From NCBI RefSeq assembly GCF_014524565.1, contig NZ_CP060139.1, forward strand, positions 1,123,501 to 1,187,500: a stretch of DNA of 64,000 nt, in the 5' to 3' direction. Origin of the DNA: Croceimicrobium hydrocarbonivorans (GTDB lineage: Bacteria; Bacteroidota; Bacteroidia; Flavobacteriales; Schleiferiaceae). This document shows, piece after piece, positions 1,495 to 8,873 of this stretch (position 1 is its first letter; every line of letters starts with the position of its first letter). A model generated the notes under the pieces. That model was not told the origin of the DNA. It ran no database searches and saw only the letters and a program-made list of their open reading frames with translations. The position numbers and the translations under genes are program-made.

Positions 1495-1866
1495 ATGAAA
1501 GCTTTTTTAGCACATAGCATTTTAGGGTTTAGCCTGTTGTTCTCGCAGCTTTACAACAGTGTTATCACTGCTGTGTATGAGCTTAATTATCAGTATTACT
1601 CTACCGTGCTTTGCGAAAACGCTGATAGACCAGAACTTCATTGCGAAGGGAAATGCTATTTCGCTAAGCAATTGCAACTGCATGAGGATTCGGAGCCCAG
1701 CAGCCCTCCCAGACTCTTGCCCGAACTTTTACTGTTTAGTCAGGATTCTCTAAGCGAATTGAACTTAGGAGTTAGTCTTCCTACGGATGAAAGGCCTGCG
1801 TACTTTTTAAAGTCAAAAATTCAGTCCCCCTCTTTAACAGAGATAGACCATCCTCCCAAAGCTTAA
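1495..1866 (+). CDS. Small exported Cys-rich protein (CxxxC, metal-uptake associated)
   Basis: This 123-residue protein starts with a hydrophobic signal or anchor segment (residues about 4-28). A short conserved cysteine region follows: Cys40, then His49-Cys50-Glu-Gly-Lys-Cys54. The remainder is low-complexity and rich in Ser, Pro and Leu. Small proteins with a Cys-x-Gly-Lys-Cys motif near outer-membrane metal receptors are common in flavobacteria, but I know of no assigned function. It is the first gene of the predicted copper operon, 47 nt before a Met-rich lipoprotein. The motif could bind Cu(I) or another soft metal, or form a disulfide in the periplasm. Nothing in the sequence decides between these. 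Confidence 0.7.
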   Translation: MKAFLAHSILGFSLLFSQLYNSVITAVYELNYQYYSTVLCENADRPELHCEGKCYFAKQLQLHEDSEPSSPPRLLPELLLFSQDSLSELNLGVSLPTDERPAYFLKSKIQSPSLTEIDHPPKA

Positions 1867-1913
1867 AGCATTTCTCTCCTTCAACTATTGTTTTAAACTT
1901 TAAAGAAATCAAG

Positions 1914-2744
1914 ATGAATATCTCAAAAAAGTGGGGTACTAGGGCTTTTGCCTTAGGCCTGGCCCTGCTGTCTATTTCCTGCAAAAAAGAGCCGGATAAC
2001 AAAGGGCAAACAAGTCCCGACAGTCCTTTACAGAATTACGTTTATTATGGTGAAAAGTCCACAGCTTTCGCCGATGTGAAACTCTACTTTGCTGAAGATG
2101 CTTTTGTGGGTTACAATCGCGTGGCGGTGGAACTATTTGAAAGCGGCAGTCAACAAAGAATTGAAAACGCTTCCCTATCATTTCTCCCCCTCATGGATAT
2201 GGGCACCACCAAACATAGCTGCCCTTTCGACAACCCTGTTTACAGTGCAGAGCTTGAAGCTTATCAAGGTAGTGCCACCTTTATTATGCCCAGCAGTACT
2301 ATGGCCAGCTGGACCTTTGGCCTGATTGTCAATCACAATGGAAATATCGACACCCTCAGCTTTAATCTTGAAGTGAAAGCTAAGGCCAAAGCCAAAGTGA
2401 TCAGCTTTATTTCTGCTGCGGATAGCCTAAGTGCCATTTTCATTGCCCTAAAAGAGCCCAGCAGTCCGGAAATTGGTTTGAACACTCTGGAGCTGATGGT
2501 CTACGAAAAGGAAAGCATGATGTCATTTCCGCCTGTGAGCGATTTCAGTATCGAAGTAGAACCGGAAATGCCCTCCATGGGACATGGATCTCCCAACAAC
2601 GAAGATCCCATATCGATTGCCAAAGGTCTTTATAGGGGCAAGGTAAATTTTACCATGAGCGGATACTGGAAGTTGCACCTGAAAATAAAAGATGCCAATG
2701 GCCAAACGCTGAATGAAGATGCCGCTTTCGACATCAGCTTTTAA
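1914..2744 (+). CDS. Met-rich lipoprotein, YtkA/FixH-like domains
   Basis: The 276-residue product has a lipoprotein signal ending at Cys23 (Leu-Ser-Ile-Ser-Cys) followed by Lys-Lys. Two similar beta-sandwich-like halves are visible. The first carries Met94-Asp-Met96 with His101 and Cys103; the second carries Met219-Pro-Ser-Met222-Gly-His224. Paired Met-Pro-x-Met-x-His motifs are typical of YtkA-like/FixH-type domains linked to copper handling. I infer a periplasm-facing or outer-membrane lipoprotein that binds copper or passes it on. It lies between the small Cys-rich gene and the TonB receptor, fitting a copper uptake operon. The stem-loop behind it at 2773-2809 may set its level relative to the receptor. 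Confidence 0.75.
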   Translation: MNISKKWGTRAFALGLALLSISCKKEPDNKGQTSPDSPLQNYVYYGEKSTAFADVKLYFAEDAFVGYNRVAVELFESGSQQRIENASLSFLPLMDMGTTKHSCPFDNPVYSAELEAYQGSATFIMPSSTMASWTFGLIVNHNGNIDTLSFNLEVKAKAKAKVISFISAADSLSAIFIALKEPSSPEIGLNTLELMVYEKESMMSFPPVSDFSIEVEPEMPSMGHGSPNNEDPISIAKGLYRGKVNFTMSGYWKLHLKIKDANGQTLNEDAAFDISF

Positions 2745-2772
2745 GTAAACATGTGATTCCTAAACCGGATTT

Positions 2773-2809
2773 GGCTTAGGGCGCCGAGCAATTATCAGCG
2801 CCCTAAGTC
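2773..2809 (+). other. Strong intercistronic stem-loop without a T-run
   Basis: CTTAGGGCGC at 2775-2784 pairs perfectly with GCGCCCTAAG at 2798-2807 around a 13-nt loop; a G.T and a G-C pair extend the stem to 2773-2809. No poly-T follows, so it is not a typical intrinsic terminator. It may act as an mRNA processing or stability element, or partially attenuate transcription, between the lipoprotein and receptor genes. Confidence 0.6.
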
Positions 2810-2827
2810 CATCCAAAAGTCTAAACC

Positions 2828-4825
2828 ATGAAATGGATTTGCACAGGCTTTTTTATTCTGCTAGCCAGTCTTTCCCGAGGCCAATCAGATACCCAAACCA
2901 TCGATCTTAAGCACCTGAGCTTGGATGAAGTTCTGGTTTTGGATAATTGGGAAAATAAGGACGCCCTTAAAAAAACGGCCGATAATCATCAGTTGGAACT
3001 TCAACTCAAACAACTCAAAGGGGTAAATCTTATTTCGCGAGGCAGCTTTGCGCAAGAACTGATATACCGAGGTCAGGCCGATGGTCGAATTCAGGTGAAA
3101 CTCAATGGCATGCGAGTTTACCATGCCTGTACAGATCGCATGGACCCATCTACCTCCTATATTGTTGCTAACAATTTAAGTTCTGCTGAGCTAGCCTCAT
3201 CCTGCGAAAGCCAATGCAGTTCTAATGGCTTGGCCGGCAGCATTAATCTTAAAACCAAAGAAGCGAGCTTCGATAAGTCCAAGATCTGGCGTTTTGGCTT
3301 TAGCCAGCAATTTCAGACGAATACTCATGGTCTGAATTCTGCTTTTTTTGTGGAGAGTAATTCCGAAAAATTGGCTTGGCGACTGAATGGCACCTGGTTA
3401 AAAAATGCCAATTATCGAGACGGTCGCGGACAGGAAGTATTGTACTCACAAAACGAAAAGCAAAACTGGGCCCTGAATTCAGTTTACCGCCTATCTCCAA
3501 AACAGTTTTTAAAATTGGATTTCATTTTTGACCTGGCCACCAATGTAGGATATCCAGCCCTTCCGATGGATGTTGGCCTGGCCAGAGCATTTATTGGCGG
3601 ACTCAGCTATCACAGCTATCACCCTCTGGGGCCCTTTGCCAATTTCGAATTGAAACTATACCATAATGACATCTACCATGAAATGGATGACACACAGCGA
3701 GAGGAGGTATTTATGCATATGGATATGCCCGGATGGAGCCGCACCTCCGGTATAAGTTTGGAAGCCATGAATTGGAAGACGGGAGCACATCGCATCAACC
3801 TGTTTACGGAGTATTACAGCAATTTCAGAAGGGCTGAGATGACAATGTTCCCCAGCAACAGCAATGAATCCGCCATGTTTATGCTTAGTTGGCCTGATGG
3901 GCGCCTTAATGGTATGGCATTGGGAATAAGTGATCATTGGCATTTTGCTAAAAACAGTGTGCAGAGCACCATCCGATTTGATCATGAAAGCTCCTCAATC
4001 CTGTCTGAAATCGGCAAAGACCAATGGACCGGGATGGGCTACACCTTAAAATCCCCCAGAAACTTTTTACTGGCTCAAATCAAAACGGCATTCCGTCATC
4101 AACTCAATCCAAAAATCAGCCTAAACAGTGCAATAAGCATCGGATCCCGCGGTCCTACCACTTCAGAGCTTTATGGCTTTTACCTATTTAATGCACACGA
4201 TAACTATGATTATTTGGGGAATCCAGATTTGGAGGCCGAACAACTTTTAAGCTTGGAAATTGGTCAAAGCTATCGCTCGGAAAAATTACAATTTAGCACA
4301 AGCCTATTTAGCCAATTCTATCGCAATTACATCTTTGGTATAAACACGAACTATGATGCGATGACCTTCGGAGCCAAAGGACTTCGAGAATATCAAAACC
4401 TGGGCCATGCCACTTTCTGGGGCATGGAACTGGCAGGGGAATACGCATTTAACAAAAAGCTAGGCAGCCGGATCAAATTAGACTATTTACGAGGCTTTCA
4501 TCCCGATTTCGATCTACCCCTAATTCCACCACTACAAGCTCTAGTAGCCCTAAACTACCGCTATAAAAATTTCCGCTTATTAAGCCAAAGCCGGATGGCA
4601 GCAGAACAAAAGCATTTCAATACAGCCTATGGCGATCGCTATACACCGGCATATATGCTCTGGGATGCCGGAATAGAGTACCAGCTGGATATGGAAAAAT
4701 ACCAGGCTACATTTAGTCTTAATGCCAATAATCTATTCAATCAATATTACCGCGATCATCTAAACTGGGGGGCCTTCCCAAGTATGGGCCGGAATCTGAT
4801 TCTTAGCCTGTCCCTTAAATTTTAA
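2828..4825 (+). CDS. TonB-dependent outer-membrane receptor, OprC/NosA-like (copper)
   Basis: This 665-residue receptor has a signal peptide (cleavage near Gly18-Gln19), a plug domain (about 45-150) and a beta-barrel that ends in Phe. There is no carboxypeptidase-like N-terminal domain. The plug contains Tyr-His-Ala-Cys101-Thr-Asp-Arg-Met105-Asp-Pro, so it has a CxxxM motif. In Pseudomonas OprC, Cu(I) is held by a CxxxM plus a HxM motif. Candidate HxM elements here are His284-Glu-Met286 and the Met296-His297-Met298-Asp-Met300 cluster. A second Cys pair, Cys126 and Cys130, lies slightly further on in the plug. Neighbours (Met-rich lipoprotein, MbnP, MbnH) support copper as the substrate. The family assignment is strong; the metal is inferred from motif and context. 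Confidence 0.85.
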   Translation: MKWICTGFFILLASLSRGQSDTQTIDLKHLSLDEVLVLDNWENKDALKKTADNHQLELQLKQLKGVNLISRGSFAQELIYRGQADGRIQVKLNGMRVYHACTDRMDPSTSYIVANNLSSAELASSCESQCSSNGLAGSINLKTKEASFDKSKIWRFGFSQQFQTNTHGLNSAFFVESNSEKLAWRLNGTWLKNANYRDGRGQEVLYSQNEKQNWALNSVYRLSPKQFLKLDFIFDLATNVGYPALPMDVGLARAFIGGLSYHSYHPLGPFANFELKLYHNDIYHEMDDTQREEVFMHMDMPGWSRTSGISLEAMNWKTGAHRINLFTEYYSNFRRAEMTMFPSNSNESAMFMLSWPDGRLNGMALGISDHWHFAKNSVQSTIRFDHESSSILSEIGKDQWTGMGYTLKSPRNFLLAQIKTAFRHQLNPKISLNSAISIGSRGPTTSELYGFYLFNAHDNYDYLGNPDLEAEQLLSLEIGQSYRSEKLQFSTSLFSQFYRNYIFGINTNYDAMTFGAKGLREYQNLGHATFWGMELAGEYAFNKKLGSRIKLDYLRGFHPDFDLPLIPPLQALVALNYRYKNFRLLSQSRMAAEQKHFNTAYGDRYTPAYMLWDAGIEYQLDMEKYQATFSLNANNLFNQYYRDHLNWGAFPSMGRNLILSLSLKF

Positions 4826-4948
4826 GCTAGAAAGTAATGAAGCCTAATCCATTATTTAAGATCATGAACGCCTTCATAGTGATAAATATCATTTCCCTGC
4901 TCAGCCAGGCATTCTACTTTAGTTTGGGTAATTAAGCGCAATGGGCAT

Positions 4949-5686
4949 ATGCGACAGTTTTTAACTTTCTTCCTACTCTGTGGTTTTGTGTTTTCCTGCA
5001 GTAAAGATGAAACAGCCCCTTCGGAACCTCAGGGCAGGATTTCAATTGACTTTCGACATTTTGCGGGCACAGACTCCCTTTTAATTGGTAAAGAGTATTA
5101 CCCAAATGCAGCCGGAAATGAATACCGGGTCTCCTATTTAAAATACTTCATTAGCGGACTTAGTCTCTATAAAAACGGCCGAAAAATCTGGCAAACCAAG
5201 ACTCCTCCCATTTCCATCAATGCCAAATACCAGGATTGCTTACAAGCCGCTTTTGAGCAGGTTCCTGTCGGTAGCTATGATTCTTTATCCTTCGCCTTTG
5301 GTATTGTTCCCGAATACAACTACCATGGAGGATTTGAAATCAGCAATGATGACTATGATATGTACTGGCCCCTCAATTTGGGTGGAGGATATCACTTTAT
5401 GAAGTTTGAAGGTCATTGGCGAGATGGAGATGAATTCGGCACTTTCGCCTTTCATGTTGGGGCTAACGAAAATCTGATCATCCATGGTTTTAAGCTTCCG
5501 CTGGATGTGCAGGAAGCTCAGAGTACCTACATCATTATGACCATGGATACCCACGAATGGTTCGAAAATCCCTATTTATTTGACCTCAGCAAGGAAAACG
5601 GGTACACCATGGGTAACCAGGGGCAAATGAATAATTTGGTATTAAACGGCCAACATGTCTTTAAGGCTAAACTGCAGGACTTCTAA
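4949..5686 (+). CDS. mbnP: MbnP-like copper-binding lipoprotein
   Basis: The 245-residue product has a lipoprotein signal ending at Cys17. The rest matches the MbnP family: an N-terminal Ile-Asp-Phe strand, a Tyr-Leu-Lys-Tyr-Phe-Ile-Ser motif (63-69), then Asp-Met-Tyr-Trp140 and Met-Lys-Phe-Glu-Gly-His-Trp157 in the middle. In characterised MbnP proteins, a conserved tryptophan is oxidised to kynurenine by the partner MbnH, creating a copper site. Trp140, Trp157 and Trp204 are candidates here, with His149, His156 and His169 as possible ligands; I cannot choose among them without an alignment. The gene follows the TonB receptor after 123 nt and sits 12 nt before mbnH, so the pair is expected to be co-expressed. 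Confidence 0.8.
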   Translation: MRQFLTFFLLCGFVFSCSKDETAPSEPQGRISIDFRHFAGTDSLLIGKEYYPNAAGNEYRVSYLKYFISGLSLYKNGRKIWQTKTPPISINAKYQDCLQAAFEQVPVGSYDSLSFAFGIVPEYNYHGGFEISNDDYDMYWPLNLGGGYHFMKFEGHWRDGDEFGTFAFHVGANENLIIHGFKLPLDVQEAQSTYIIMTMDTHEWFENPYLFDLSKENGYTMGNQGQMNNLVLNGQHVFKAKLQDF

Positions 5687-5698
5687 ATAGCTCCAATC

Positions 5699-6739
5699 AT
5701 GAGACTCTTTCAAACCTCACAAAAAACCCTGCCCGCCTCTATTCTTGTAAGCATTCTCCTAGTTATGTTATTGAGCATGGCCCTGAGTTGCCAAAAAGAA
5801 AGTAACCAGACAACCAGGCTCAAGCCCTATATTATTGAGCTCCCAAACAGTTTTCCCAGGCTTGAAATCCCTGAAGATAACCAGCCCTATATGGAGCGCA
5901 TTGCCCTAGGGCGCAAACTGTATTACGACTCTACTCTGAGTAATGATGGCCGCGCCTGTGCCAGCTGCCACATTCAAGCACAAGGCTTTACCAAATCCAG
6001 TCAAAACGTAATGCCTGTACTACACCATGCAAATCTTGCTTGGAAAAACCGATATATGTGGGACGGTAGCAAGAGTGGAAGCCTGGAGGAGCTTATGTAC
6101 TTTGAGGTGACTGAGTTTTTTAATACCAATGTTTCCAAATTTAACAGTCACCCAGAATATCCCGAGCTTTTCGAGGAAGCCTATAATTCCTCAACCATTA
6201 CAGCTGAAGACCTTGCCAAGGCTCTGGCCCAATTTGTACGCACCTTAATTTCTGCCAATAGTAAATACGACCAAGTAATGAGTGGCGAGGCTACTTTCAC
6301 CGAATTAGAAGTCAAGGGGCATGCTATATTTACCGGCGAAAGAGGAAGCTGTTACCACTGCCATATTCCTCCGCTATTTACCGATAACAGAGTGCATAAT
6401 ATTGGACTGGACAGCACTTATGAAATCCCGGCAAATCAAGGCTATTTCCATAGCTCCGGCGATTCCAGTCATCTGGGACATATGCGCACGGCAAATCTTC
6501 GCAATATTGGTTTAAGGAGCAGCTTTATGCATGATGGTCGCTTCAATGACCTGAAGCAAGTATTGGAACATTATAGTAATGGTGTAAAACAGAGCCCCAG
6601 CTTAGATCCGGTAATGATTAAGTCAAATGGGTCTGCGAAACTTCATTTTACTACGGAAGAAATAGAAGCCCTGGAAGCTTTCCTCAATACTCTTACAGAC
6701 TCCACATTTATATCCAATCCCGAACTTAGTGAAGCCTAA
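5699..6739 (+). CDS. mbnH: MbnH-like di-haem cytochrome c peroxidase/MauG-family lipoprotein
   Basis: The 346-residue enzyme has a long signal with a lipobox ending at Cys31. Two haem c motifs are present: Cys87-Ala-Ser-Cys90-His91 and Cys218-Tyr-His-Cys221-His222. The layout matches bacterial di-haem cytochrome c peroxidase/MauG proteins, including the Phe-Val-Arg-Thr-Leu segment (179-183) before the second haem and the His-Asp-Gly-Arg-Phe motif near the C-terminus. Next to MbnP it is best called MbnH, which uses a high-valent di-haem state to convert a Trp of MbnP to kynurenine. A plain hydrogen peroxide-scavenging peroxidase is the alternative. Only 12 nt separate it from mbnP and 3 nt from the QueD-like gene. 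Confidence 0.85.
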   Translation: MRLFQTSQKTLPASILVSILLVMLLSMALSCQKESNQTTRLKPYIIELPNSFPRLEIPEDNQPYMERIALGRKLYYDSTLSNDGRACASCHIQAQGFTKSSQNVMPVLHHANLAWKNRYMWDGSKSGSLEELMYFEVTEFFNTNVSKFNSHPEYPELFEEAYNSSTITAEDLAKALAQFVRTLISANSKYDQVMSGEATFTELEVKGHAIFTGERGSCYHCHIPPLFTDNRVHNIGLDSTYEIPANQGYFHSSGDSSHLGHMRTANLRNIGLRSSFMHDGRFNDLKQVLEHYSNGVKQSPSLDPVMIKSNGSAKLHFTTEEIEALEAFLNTLTDSTFISNPELSEA

Positions 6740-6742
6740 ATC

Positions 6743-7195
6743 ATGAAAACCTTAGCCCGCTCGGGCCACTTAAGCATTAGTCGGATTTTCACTTTCGAAA
6801 TGGCGCATGTACTTAGCAACCATCACGGTCTTTGCAAAAACCTACATGGTCATTCTTATAAACTGCATATTAGCTTAAGTGGAAAAGTTATCGATGATCC
6901 TGACGCCGCAAATGACGGGATGATCCTAGATTTTGGTGAACTCAAGGAAATCGTTAATCAGCATATTCTTAGCAAGTTTGATCATGCATTAGTGGTATAC
7001 CAAAAGGCTGCCAATGCGCAAGACTTACTTAATTTACCCTTTGAACGAATTGAAGTATTAAACTTTCAGCCCACCTGCGAAAATCTGGTTTTGCACTTTG
7101 TCCATTTACTGGAATTAAATCTTCCAAAAAGGATTAAGCTTCACAAGCTAAGACTGTATGAGACAGCAAATTCCTACTCGGAATGGCAAGCTTAA
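6743..7195 (+). CDS. QueD/6-pyruvoyl-tetrahydropterin synthase-like enzyme
   Basis: This 150-residue tunnel-fold protein keeps the family's key residues. Zinc ligands are His22, His35 and His37; the QueD-type motif Cys31-x3-His-Gly-His is intact; Asp80-His81 and Glu140 complete the catalytic set; Pro-Thr-Cys-Glu-Asn lies at 110-114. The expected reaction is formation of 6-carboxy-tetrahydropterin from dihydroneopterin triphosphate, an early queuosine step, or a PTPS-like pterin reaction. No queC, queE or folE lies nearby. It starts 3 nt after the mbnH stop and so is probably translated with it. A role in the copper operon is unexplained; simple co-transcription of a housekeeping gene is possible. 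Confidence 0.85.
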   Translation: MKTLARSGHLSISRIFTFEMAHVLSNHHGLCKNLHGHSYKLHISLSGKVIDDPDAANDGMILDFGELKEIVNQHILSKFDHALVVYQKAANAQDLLNLPFERIEVLNFQPTCENLVLHFVHLLELNLPKRIKLHKLRLYETANSYSEWQA

Positions 7196-7442
7196 ACGGC
7201 ACATTTCCTAATCCTTTTCCAAGCCTCTTAATTTCCTCGTCCGCTATATTCTCCGCTCTAATTATCGGCAAAACGCTTCTGGATACAATTGCTGTTTTGG
7301 CTTTTCAGCCTGACCTATGCTGCTATTTGGCATGAATGATGATATCTTGTGGACGCTTAAATAGGTTTATTTAGATATTCCAATGTCAAAACAAATCTTA
7401 CCACTTAGCATTAGTATTAAAACTCTGATCAAATTACTCCCT

Positions 7443-8873
7443 ATGAAAAAAGCCCTACTCCTTTTATTTACATTCGGTACCTTCAGCATGAGCGCCCAAG
7501 GTTTAATTAGCAATCAGCTACATCACGGTCATCAAGCCGAAGCGGAAGGAGCCATTGGCCCTCAATGTGGCTCGCACTTCCTAATGGTGGATCAGGACCA
7601 AAAAAAACCTGGCTATCTGGATGCCTCCAATAAGGCTCTGCAAAATATTATTGAGAATCTTGAGCACAAGTCCAAGACCAGTACTACCGCTACCTTAACC
7701 ATCCCGGTCGTATTTCATGTTGTCTATAATAATGGGGATGAAAATTTACCGGACTCGGTTTTCCAAAATCAAATCCGAGTTTTAAATGACAATTACAGTC
7801 GCCAAAATGCGGACACCAGTTCCCTGCGTCCCGAATTCCAACCTTATGTTGGAAATCCCAATATTCAATTCGTTTTAGCGAGCCAAGACCCGGATGGCAA
7901 TCCTACTAATGGCATTGCCCGAACCAGCACCAATGTGGAGCATTTTGGTGGTATCTTACCCTATGGCCCTAATCAATCCGCGCAAATTCAGCAATGGGTA
8001 GCCGATAGCTTATTCTATAATTTATTTCGGATCACCGAAGACAGTCTGGGTGGAGCCAGCGCCTGGGACACCGAGCGCTATCTTAATATCTGGGTTGGTG
8101 ACCTGCGCATTTTCGAACCGCAATTCAACAATTTTGAAGAGTTGGTTTTCTTAGGCTTAGCTCAGCCACCCGGTAATCATCCCAATTTTGCAGGTACGGG
8201 TTTCGACACCCTCCAATACAGTGACGGCGTATTGATGCACTATGTTGCAATCGGGCCTAATAACCCAATCGATTACCCTGCTGCCTATGCCAATTTAAAC
8301 AGCACTCTAGACGAAGGAGACCTGGTAAGTCATGAGGTGGGCCACTACCTTGGATTGCGTCATATTTGGGGAGATGGTGGCTGTTCCGCCGATGACTATA
8401 TCGATGACACCCCGCTTTCGAACAATTCCAATCAGTTTAGCTGCAACAAGCAAAGAAATTCCTGTGTGGACAGCATTGGCGGTGCCGATTTACCAGATAT
8501 GATTGAAAACTTCATGGACTACAGCGCAGATGCCTGCCTAAACTCCTTTACGGTCGATCAAGCGGCAGTGATGCGCGCAACCCTATTTACTTATCGTCCG
8601 AATGTATTTACCATCGGACAGGAAGAAATCGCCCTGGCTAGTAGCATTCAGTGCTTCCCTAATCCAAGCTCCGGAAAAATTAACATCGTTTCAAATGCCG
8701 ATCCACAAGATCTTCAAGTTAAGATTTTCAATAGCGCGGGAACATTGATTTCCGAAAACCACTTTCATTCTGAAACCAAAATTGAACTGAATTTGGAAGG
8801 ACCATCAGGACTGTATATCGTTCAAGTGAGCAGTGCTCAAGATCAGGTTAGTTTTAGAGTTTTGAAGCACTAA
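7443..8873 (+). CDS. Secreted pappalysin-type (M43) zinc metalloprotease with T9SS signal
   Basis: Counted from the ATG at 7443, the protein has 476 residues with a clear signal peptide (Met-Lys-Lys-Ala-Leu, cleavage after Ser-Ala-Gln at about 19). An in-frame ATG at 7383 would put 20 extra residues before the signal and is less likely. The catalytic motif His297-Glu-Val-Gly-His301-x5-His307 is the metzincin site of M43 pappalysins, followed by Asp-Asp-Thr-Pro and the Met-turn Asn-Phe-Met-Asp-Tyr. The last about 80 residues (Cys-Phe-Pro-Asn-Pro-Ser-Ser-Gly through Gly-Leu-Tyr-Ile-Val-Gln-Val) form a T9SS type A sorting domain. It is therefore exported and attached to the surface or released, probably for protein degradation. 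A terminator follows. Confidence 0.88.
   Translation: MKKALLLLFTFGTFSMSAQGLISNQLHHGHQAEAEGAIGPQCGSHFLMVDQDQKKPGYLDASNKALQNIIENLEHKSKTSTTATLTIPVVFHVVYNNGDENLPDSVFQNQIRVLNDNYSRQNADTSSLRPEFQPYVGNPNIQFVLASQDPDGNPTNGIARTSTNVEHFGGILPYGPNQSAQIQQWVADSLFYNLFRITEDSLGGASAWDTERYLNIWVGDLRIFEPQFNNFEELVFLGLAQPPGNHPNFAGTGFDTLQYSDGVLMHYVAIGPNNPIDYPAAYANLNSTLDEGDLVSHEVGHYLGLRHIWGDGGCSADDYIDDTPLSNNSNQFSCNKQRNSCVDSIGGADLPDMIENFMDYSADACLNSFTVDQAAVMRATLFTYRPNVFTIGQEEIALASSIQCFPNPSSGKINIVSNADPQDLQVKIFNSAGTLISENHFHSETKIELNLEGPSGLYIVQVSSAQDQVSFRVLKH

Follow-up and report, generated by a model that had tools for sequence, protein, structure and literature searches.

A putative copper-uptake gene module in line with a clade II nos operon in Croceimicrobium hydrocarbonivorans

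Introduction

How copper crosses the outer membrane of bacteria that carry a clade II nitrous oxide (N2O) reductase is a question to which we found no answer in the literature searched, and it is raised by a row of six genes at 1495-7195 of the stretch of Croceimicrobium hydrocarbonivorans DNA considered here (assembly GCF_014524565.1, contig NZ_CP060139.1, 1,123,501-1,187,500 of the forward strand; these 64,000 nt are called the window). N2O is a greenhouse gas, and the reductase, NosZ, requires much copper; to our knowledge it is the sole biological sink for N2O. The row encodes a small protein with three cysteines, a Met-rich lipoprotein, a TonB-dependent receptor resembling the copper receptor OprC, members of the MbnP and MbnH families and a QueD-like enzyme, and a clade II nos operon lies directly upstream on the same strand. 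We put the probability at roughly 60% that the set is a module carrying copper across the outer membrane into the periplasm and, in this genome, coupled to the metalation of NosZ; we infer the metal, the direction of transport, the delivery and the co-regulation. The upstream operon names the likely user of the imported copper, and with the module standing behind and in line with nos, one of its main jobs would probably be to provide copper for N2O reductase.

The features are as follows; CxGKC, like MP391, D-type (ACxD) and N-type (ACPNR) below, is a label coined in the present analysis.

1495-1866, + strand: CxGKC protein gene, an open reading frame of no Pfam or NCBIfam family; product small, exported or anchored
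1914-2744, + strand: YtkA-domain Met-rich lipoprotein, putative periplasmic copper carrier (PF13115)
2773-2809, + strand: intercistronic RNA stem-loop at the lipoprotein/receptor junction (minimum free energy z -5.0)
2828-4825, + strand: OprC/NosA-like TonB-dependent receptor, putative copper importer (PF00593; OprC alignment)
4949-5686, + strand: MbnP-family lipoprotein (PF20243)
5699-6739, + strand: MbnH/MauG-type di-haem protein (PF03150; TIGR04039 the best model)
6743-7195, + strand: PTPS/QueD-like enzyme (PF01242)

The original prediction for this stretch, of six consecutive same-strand genes forming a copper-acquisition operon, holds as to the row itself: all six open reading frames are present on the + strand and closely spaced, with gaps of 47, 83, 123, 12 and 3 bases. 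Its naming of the Met-rich lipoprotein, now seen to carry a YtkA domain, was likewise correct.

The receptor

The receptor scores 94.8 bits against PF00593 (cut-off 27), which places it among the TonB-dependent barrels; its Plug domain, at 17.1 bits, is under the cut-off of 23.9, and the plug region nonetheless aligns with OprC. A phmmer search against PDB sequences matched OprC only (six distinct sequences, best E 8.8e-7), and residues 60-649 align with OprC 6fok at 31 bits. In that alignment HACTDRMD lies over GACPNRMD of OprC and HEMDD over HIMDN, so that both the CxxxM motif, which had been predicted and reads CTDRM, and the HxM motif are in register. Across 12 nos-linked receptors C101, M105, H284, M286, M298, M300, M338 and M340 are invariant; all 18 rows of a wider nos-linked set have the Cys and Met, and the 17 that reach the second site have HxM, the sequence from locus L053 ending before it. 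The invariant methionines are reminiscent of the methionine track of OprC (PMC8610252).

Against the equivalog model TIGR01778 the receptor reaches 107.5 bits, below the cut-off of 472.45, while its highest NCBIfam score, 122 bits, is with the haem receptor model TIGR01785; we therefore term it OprC-like and do not file it as an orthologue. Identity as a haem receptor was considered and set aside in favour of the OprC alignment. A cargo of zinc, iron or haem, with copper-like motifs that mislead, would fit the TIGR01785 score and the fact that ZnuD also scores, although all of these lie far under their cut-offs; with all six PDB sequence matches being OprC, and with the profiles of MbnP and the YtkA lipoprotein matching solved copper proteins, we regard it as most improbable. 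Copper, as originally predicted, is the best supported metal, on the OprC-aligned CxxxM and HxM motifs, the match of the YtkA profile to a 'Copper resistance protein' and the MbnP fold, and the receptor is accordingly described here as a putative binder and importer of copper.

Like OprC of Pseudomonas aeruginosa and NosA of P. stutzeri, the latter tied to the copper of N2O reductase (PMC8610252, PMC7558416), the window protein is a TonB receptor with CxxxM, HxM and extra methionines. Unlike them it is distant in sequence and stands in one gene row with nos, YtkA, CxGKC, MbnP and MbnH. A further comparison is the OprC-like receptor of Bizionia argentinensis, flavobacterial and with CxxxM and HxM, for which NosL is listed three transcription units away; the accessible part of that account describes no YtkA/CxGKC module, MbnP/MbnH or nos linkage (PMC11213822).

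The upstream nos operon

The six genes are the 3' portion of a larger cluster that reaches upstream, mostly beyond the window edge; the rest of the nos operon is at C1:1117168-1123500 of the same genome. The order in this locus (L008) is cytochrome c, NosZ, NosB-like, NosL, NosD, NosF-like ATPase, NosY-like permease, MP391 and then the six genes. NosZ scores 956 bits with TIGR04246 (cut-off 625) and is of the Sec-type, clade II; NosD scores 397 bits with TIGR04247 (cut-off 300) and NosL 49 bits with PF05573 (cut-off 24), so that the Sec-type NosZ, NosD and NosL of a clade II nos operon are all present. For NosY, NosB, NosF and the cytochrome the naming follows position and recurrence: no named model matched the NosY and NosB proteins, and the best 25 of 189 models matching the NosF-like ATPase are general ATP-binding cassette models only. 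Ahead of the operon, and divergent from it, are an Rrf2 regulator and an iron-sulfur repair (RIC) gene. It is possible that a single transcript runs from the nos operon through the six genes; the gaps within it would include 145 bases ahead of the CxGKC gene and 123 ahead of that for MbnP.

The remaining features of this part of the window are:

1-90, + strand: NosY-like permease gene, the last of the nos core genes, 3' end only, an open reading frame in the same locus
174-1349, + strand: MP391, a 391-aa polytopic membrane protein with a fold of the haem-copper-oxidase/NO-reductase type
7383-8873: M43-type metallopeptidase with a type IX secretion tail, 187 bases past the cluster end and probably unrelated to the cluster

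MP391 matched no Pfam or NCBIfam family. Foldseek matched its AlphaFold2 model (predicted local distance difference test, pLDDT, 93) with a cbb3 oxidase subunit at E 2.8e-6 and TM 0.72, and H47, H49 and H300 are invariant across 22 rows. Homologues occur in 43 of 113 nosZ loci, some of them near RIC, and MP391 is possibly an unrecognised family related to nitric oxide (NO).

Recurrence of the module and its linkage to nos

A scan of genome contigs with the receptor alignment confirmed at least 561 relatives among 596 stretches, and the best 80 loci, a selection skewed to close relatives, contained YtkA in 80, CxGKC in 77, NosZ in 20, MbnH in 8, MbnP in 6 and PTPS in one. Mesonia (L175), Myroides (L189) and Chishuiella (L198) have the order CxGKC-YtkA-receptor-MbnP-MbnH without any nos gene in the stretch covered; the contig of Chryseobacterium (L196) breaks off before any CxGKC gene could appear. 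The set recurs in related and in distant members of the phylum, bearing out the predicted co-occurrence, and CxGKC protein, YtkA lipoprotein and receptor together are a recurrent Bacteroidota unit.

Linkage to nos was counted in a less biased sample of 408 distinct genomes, made up of a phylum draw of 296 and an order draw of 146 with 34 common to both, in which nosZ was found above cut-off 113 times. Receptors were detected by a 23-base pattern for ACx[DN]xMDP, which requires Asp or Asn and misses variants; the nos-linked ACPSRMDP receptors of L031 and L073 were detected by protein search only. The pattern gave 69 receptors, 44 D-type (the window kind) and 25 N-type, a second OprC-like kind (ACPNRMDP). 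NosZ is no more than 15 kb from 16 of the D-type receptors and MbnP no more than 6 kb from 13; three have both nearby, in the window genome, in its close twin G394 and, at 12.7 kb from nosZ, in G242. Among N-type receptors the corresponding numbers are 2 and 0 of 25. Three further D-type receptors stand among nos genes on short contigs on which nosZ is cut or absent (G212, G109 and G232). Within genomes that have nosZ, 16 of 27 D-type receptors are within 15 kb of it (p ~1e-25, assuming uniform placement, independent genomes and a genome of 3 Mb). Chance placement near nos was set aside on the strength of the pattern read backwards, which matched nothing in the genomes listed, and of the non-uniform placement.

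The converse count, made from the 113 nosZ loci out to 20 kb where contigs reach (some end early), gives 15 with a D-type receptor. YtkA adjoins the receptor on the same strand in every one of these 15 and occurs in none of the other 98; CxGKC is also present in 6 of the 15. In three further nosZ loci (L023, L031 and L073) the receptor has CxxxM-HxM but is of a different type, and YtkA is absent. In 39 nos-linked D-type loci, which include at least two fetched twice from one genome (L108/L121 and L119/L123), the receptor lies downstream on the same strand in 15, upstream on the same strand in 15, upstream on the opposite strand in 3, downstream on the opposite strand in 3 and inside the operon, an arrangement with the receptor between nosL and nosD, in 3.

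Two side observations concern single genomes. Genome G025 has two D-type modules, one beside nos with no MbnP in the stretch (L076), the other on a different contig with MbnP/MbnH (L211). In G296 two nosZ-like matches, of 647 and 428 bits, are neighbours (C136:1869-5987).

A FastTree phylogeny of 111 receptors, from which rows with an identical core, with fewer than 560 residues or without the motif were omitted, puts nos linkage (36 rows) at 24 changes, a count inflated by cut contigs that hide nos genes and by nos-centred sampling, and MbnP linkage (17 rows) at 5; the tree is unrooted, and gain and loss are indistinguishable in it. The window receptor and its twin fall in a well-supported clade in which no other row is MbnP-linked; the rest are nos-linked (L110, L111 and L119) or on a short contig (L122), and this clade is separate from the other MbnP-linked ones. 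The simpler reading is that MbnP/MbnH joined this receptor type repeatedly.

The YtkA lipoprotein, the CxGKC protein and the stem-loop

The lipoprotein scores 42 bits with PF13115 (cut-off 25.9), and its profile matches PDB 9ll2, a 'Copper resistance protein' (E 9.5e-9). The domain match falls in the second half of the window protein (177-256) and in the first half (47-124) of a relative. C23, M94, M96, H101, M219, M222, H224 and M248 are invariant in a 14-row alignment. A relative is CtaK of Bacillus subtilis, also a membrane-anchored YtkA-domain lipoprotein, which serves copper centre assembly and is implicated in that of CuA (PMC13344008); NosZ likewise carries a CuA centre (PMC7558416). 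The window protein differs from CtaK in being longer, in having two conserved Met/His stretches and in its linkage to an outer membrane receptor.

The first gene of the row had been predicted to encode a Cys-rich exported protein. Exported or anchored it appears to be; Cys-rich was generous, for it has three cysteines only, in C-x9-C-x-G-K-C, and no Pfam or NCBIfam model matched above cut-off. All 108 aligned homologues retain C-x(6-12)-C-x-G-x-C, and 86 of them have C-x-G-K-C. Counting 8-mers in front of 104 CxGKC genes brought up AT-rich words, some promoter-like words such as AGTTGACA, and no clear operator.

Between lipoprotein and receptor genes the stem-loop listed above has counterparts elsewhere. 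Among junctions of at least 35 bases, z is below -2 in 31 of 37 from YtkA to receptor, 20 of 55 from CxGKC to YtkA and 8 of 28 from CxGKC to receptor, and at the YtkA/receptor junction the structure recurs while the sequence differs. The stem-loop may set unequal expression of the two genes.

MbnP and MbnH

MbnP scores 84.1 bits with PF20243 (cut-off 27), and its profile matches PDB 7l6g, an MbnP, with E 7e-7. The predicted fold (mean pLDDT 81) superimposes on 7l6g with Z 16.3 over 203 residues at a root-mean-square deviation of 3.0, the next best structure giving Z 8.1; the model is of low confidence at 126-147, and the surroundings of Trp140 therefore cannot be judged from it. Among 16 relatives W140, Y148 and H169 are invariant. 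According to a 2021 PNAS paper, the first Trp of the WxW motif of MbnP is reportedly the kynurenine precursor; the second Trp is absent from the window protein, as it is from those of L108/L121, L111 and L167 and two L007 paralogues. Of the 28 rows compared for this, two (L168 and L191) are YtkA proteins that the MbnP profile had picked up, and they were disregarded.

The top PDB match of the partner protein is 6e1c ('Di-heme enzyme', E 2.8e-36), which we take to be MbnH. The window protein has two CxxCH haem motifs, CASCH and CYHCH, and the Tyr of its EHYSNG aligns with a Tyr of 6e1c and of MauG that is presumably the axial haem ligand. Kynurenine formation at MbnP Trp140 is plausible.

Other arrangements of these families were seen. 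Another MbnP locus of the same genome (L006:5572-9216) has two tandem MbnH genes, an HYC_CC_PP protein and an MbnP that ends in a type IX secretion tail and is probably exported to the cell surface or medium. At L007:7916-9507 two MbnP-like genes are adjacent, the second under the Pfam cut-off, without a neighbouring MbnH, and L005:7441-9698 is a row of CxGKC-like gene, MbnP and MbnH without an adjoining receptor.

The pairing of a TonB receptor with MbnP/MbnH is already known in methanotrophs and is not new (PMC3621798). The window pair shares with those the MbnP fold, the MauG-like partner and the nearby receptor; unlike them it has an OprC-like rather than an MbnT-like receptor, adjoins nos and has no second Trp. 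The methanotroph neighbourhoods with MbnT-like receptors, together with CrtA, which takes up chelated copper (PMC12914433), make it conceivable that a copper complex (a chalkophore or peptide) is imported here, as by MbnT, in place of copper ions. This we hold to be quite unlikely, the OprC ion site being intact in the receptor; moreover no methanobactin-like gene was seen among the open reading frames listed around the cluster, though no model-based search for one was made.

The QueD-like gene

The last protein of the row scores 101 bits with PF01242, in agreement with its designation as QueD-like, and 84.8 bits with the QueD model TIGR03367, under its cut-off of 89.25. The genome has three PTPS genes in total, that of the window beginning 3 bases past MbnH, which rules out that it is the sole genomic QueD with a plain housekeeping role. 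PTPS occurs in 4 of the 113 nosZ loci, adjoining MbnP/MbnH in three (L008, L108 and L111) and elsewhere in the locus in L086. In L111 the MbnP-MbnH-PTPS triple lies about 14 kb from the receptor on the far side of nos, and thus PTPS is tied to MbnP/MbnH and not to the receptor. With one occurrence in the best 80 loci and three beside MbnP/MbnH in the 113, it was set aside as a core part. Of the predicted extension of the operon by a CxGKC protein and a pterin-type enzyme, the CxGKC protein is no oddity but a constant partner, present in 77 of the best 80 loci, and it is the QueD-like gene that is the local extra. That a pterin takes part in modifying MbnP is no more than speculation: MbnH looks exported, whereas in the PTPS protein no export signal is visible by eye.

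Does the module serve NosZ?

Several observations weigh against a module dedicated to N2O reductase. The module is not required for nos, since 98 of the 113 nosZ loci have no D-type receptor in the stretch read, and MbnP together with MbnH is found in 5 of the 113. Conversely, a nosZ above cut-off is missing from the 15 kb around 28 of the 44 D-type receptors, and from the entire genome for 17; three of the 17 adjoin other nos genes. By genome, in the phylum draw, D-type receptors are modestly associated with nosZ (17 of 99 genomes with it vs 16 of 197 without, p 0.018), and N-type receptors more strongly (16 of 99 vs 6 of 197, p 1e-4), though seldom nearby. The predicted MbnP/MbnH pair is upheld by Pfam, as MbnP and a di-haem CCP/MauG protein, but both members are under their NCBIfam cut-offs (MbnP 22.5 bits with the equivalog TIGR04052, cut-off 140; MbnH 175.3 bits with TIGR04039, cut-off 362.85). 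Kynurenine formation would need an oxidant, which is odd for supplying an anoxic enzyme. Finally, the service of NosA to NosZ is disputed even in Pseudomonas, a later report having described NosZ as unimpaired in a nosA mutant of P. stutzeri (PMC8610252).

Such counts would suit a general uptake system for copper starvation, incidentally placed behind nos and feeding cytochrome oxidases and other copper enzymes alike. No NosZ is within the stretch in 60 of the best 80 loci, OprC is present in non-denitrifiers (PMC8610252), and the YtkA protein CtaK serves cytochrome oxidase (PMC13344008). What such a system leaves hard to explain without a functional tie is the tight linkage to nos in five arrangements, together with the 24 linkage changes of the tree, even as an inflated count; we consider general uptake rather unlikely, while taking it seriously. 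By genome, in the phylum draw, D-type receptors are associated with MbnP (21 of 78 genomes with it vs 12 of 218 without, p 2e-6).

In the preferred reading, of an uptake module coupled to NosZ metalation, the receptor would bind copper at CxxxM-HxM and import it by TonB energy, as OprC suggests. In the periplasm it would pass to the YtkA lipoprotein and an anchored CxGKC protein, as their invariant Met, His and Cys suggest. MbnH would modify MbnP, probably turning Trp140 into kynurenine as in other MbnP/MbnH pairs, to give an additional periplasmic copper site, and NosL and NosDFY would carry out the final insertion into NosZ. The likely path is thus from the receptor through YtkA, CxGKC and MbnP to NosL and NosDFY and so to NosZ; modules elsewhere probably supply other copper enzymes. 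A more specific version can be offered tentatively, as one possibility that we would not yet favour: a kynurenine-type MbnP made by MbnH, the OprC-like receptor, YtkA and the three-Cys protein might form a dedicated copper line for clade II NosZ, loaded while oxidant is present, NosZ being metalated once oxygen is gone.

Conclusions

In the literature searched, which mostly lies outside the subscription journals, we found no description of the YtkA-CxGKC-receptor unit, of its link to nos or of MbnP/MbnH beside nos, and titles and abstract openings in it gave no account of a TonB receptor in Bacteroidota nos clusters. The accessible parts of two flavobacterial nos-cluster studies give only Z, (B), L, D, F and Y. 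The recurrence of the pairing in other Bacteroidota suggests a way in which some of them feed NosZ with copper. Some Bacteroidota link a recurrent receptor-lipoprotein-CxGKC module to nos, a few of them with MbnP/MbnH as well; there are now named genes for deletion and assay, and MbnP/MbnH gain, in NosZ, a candidate copper enzyme outside the methanotrophs.

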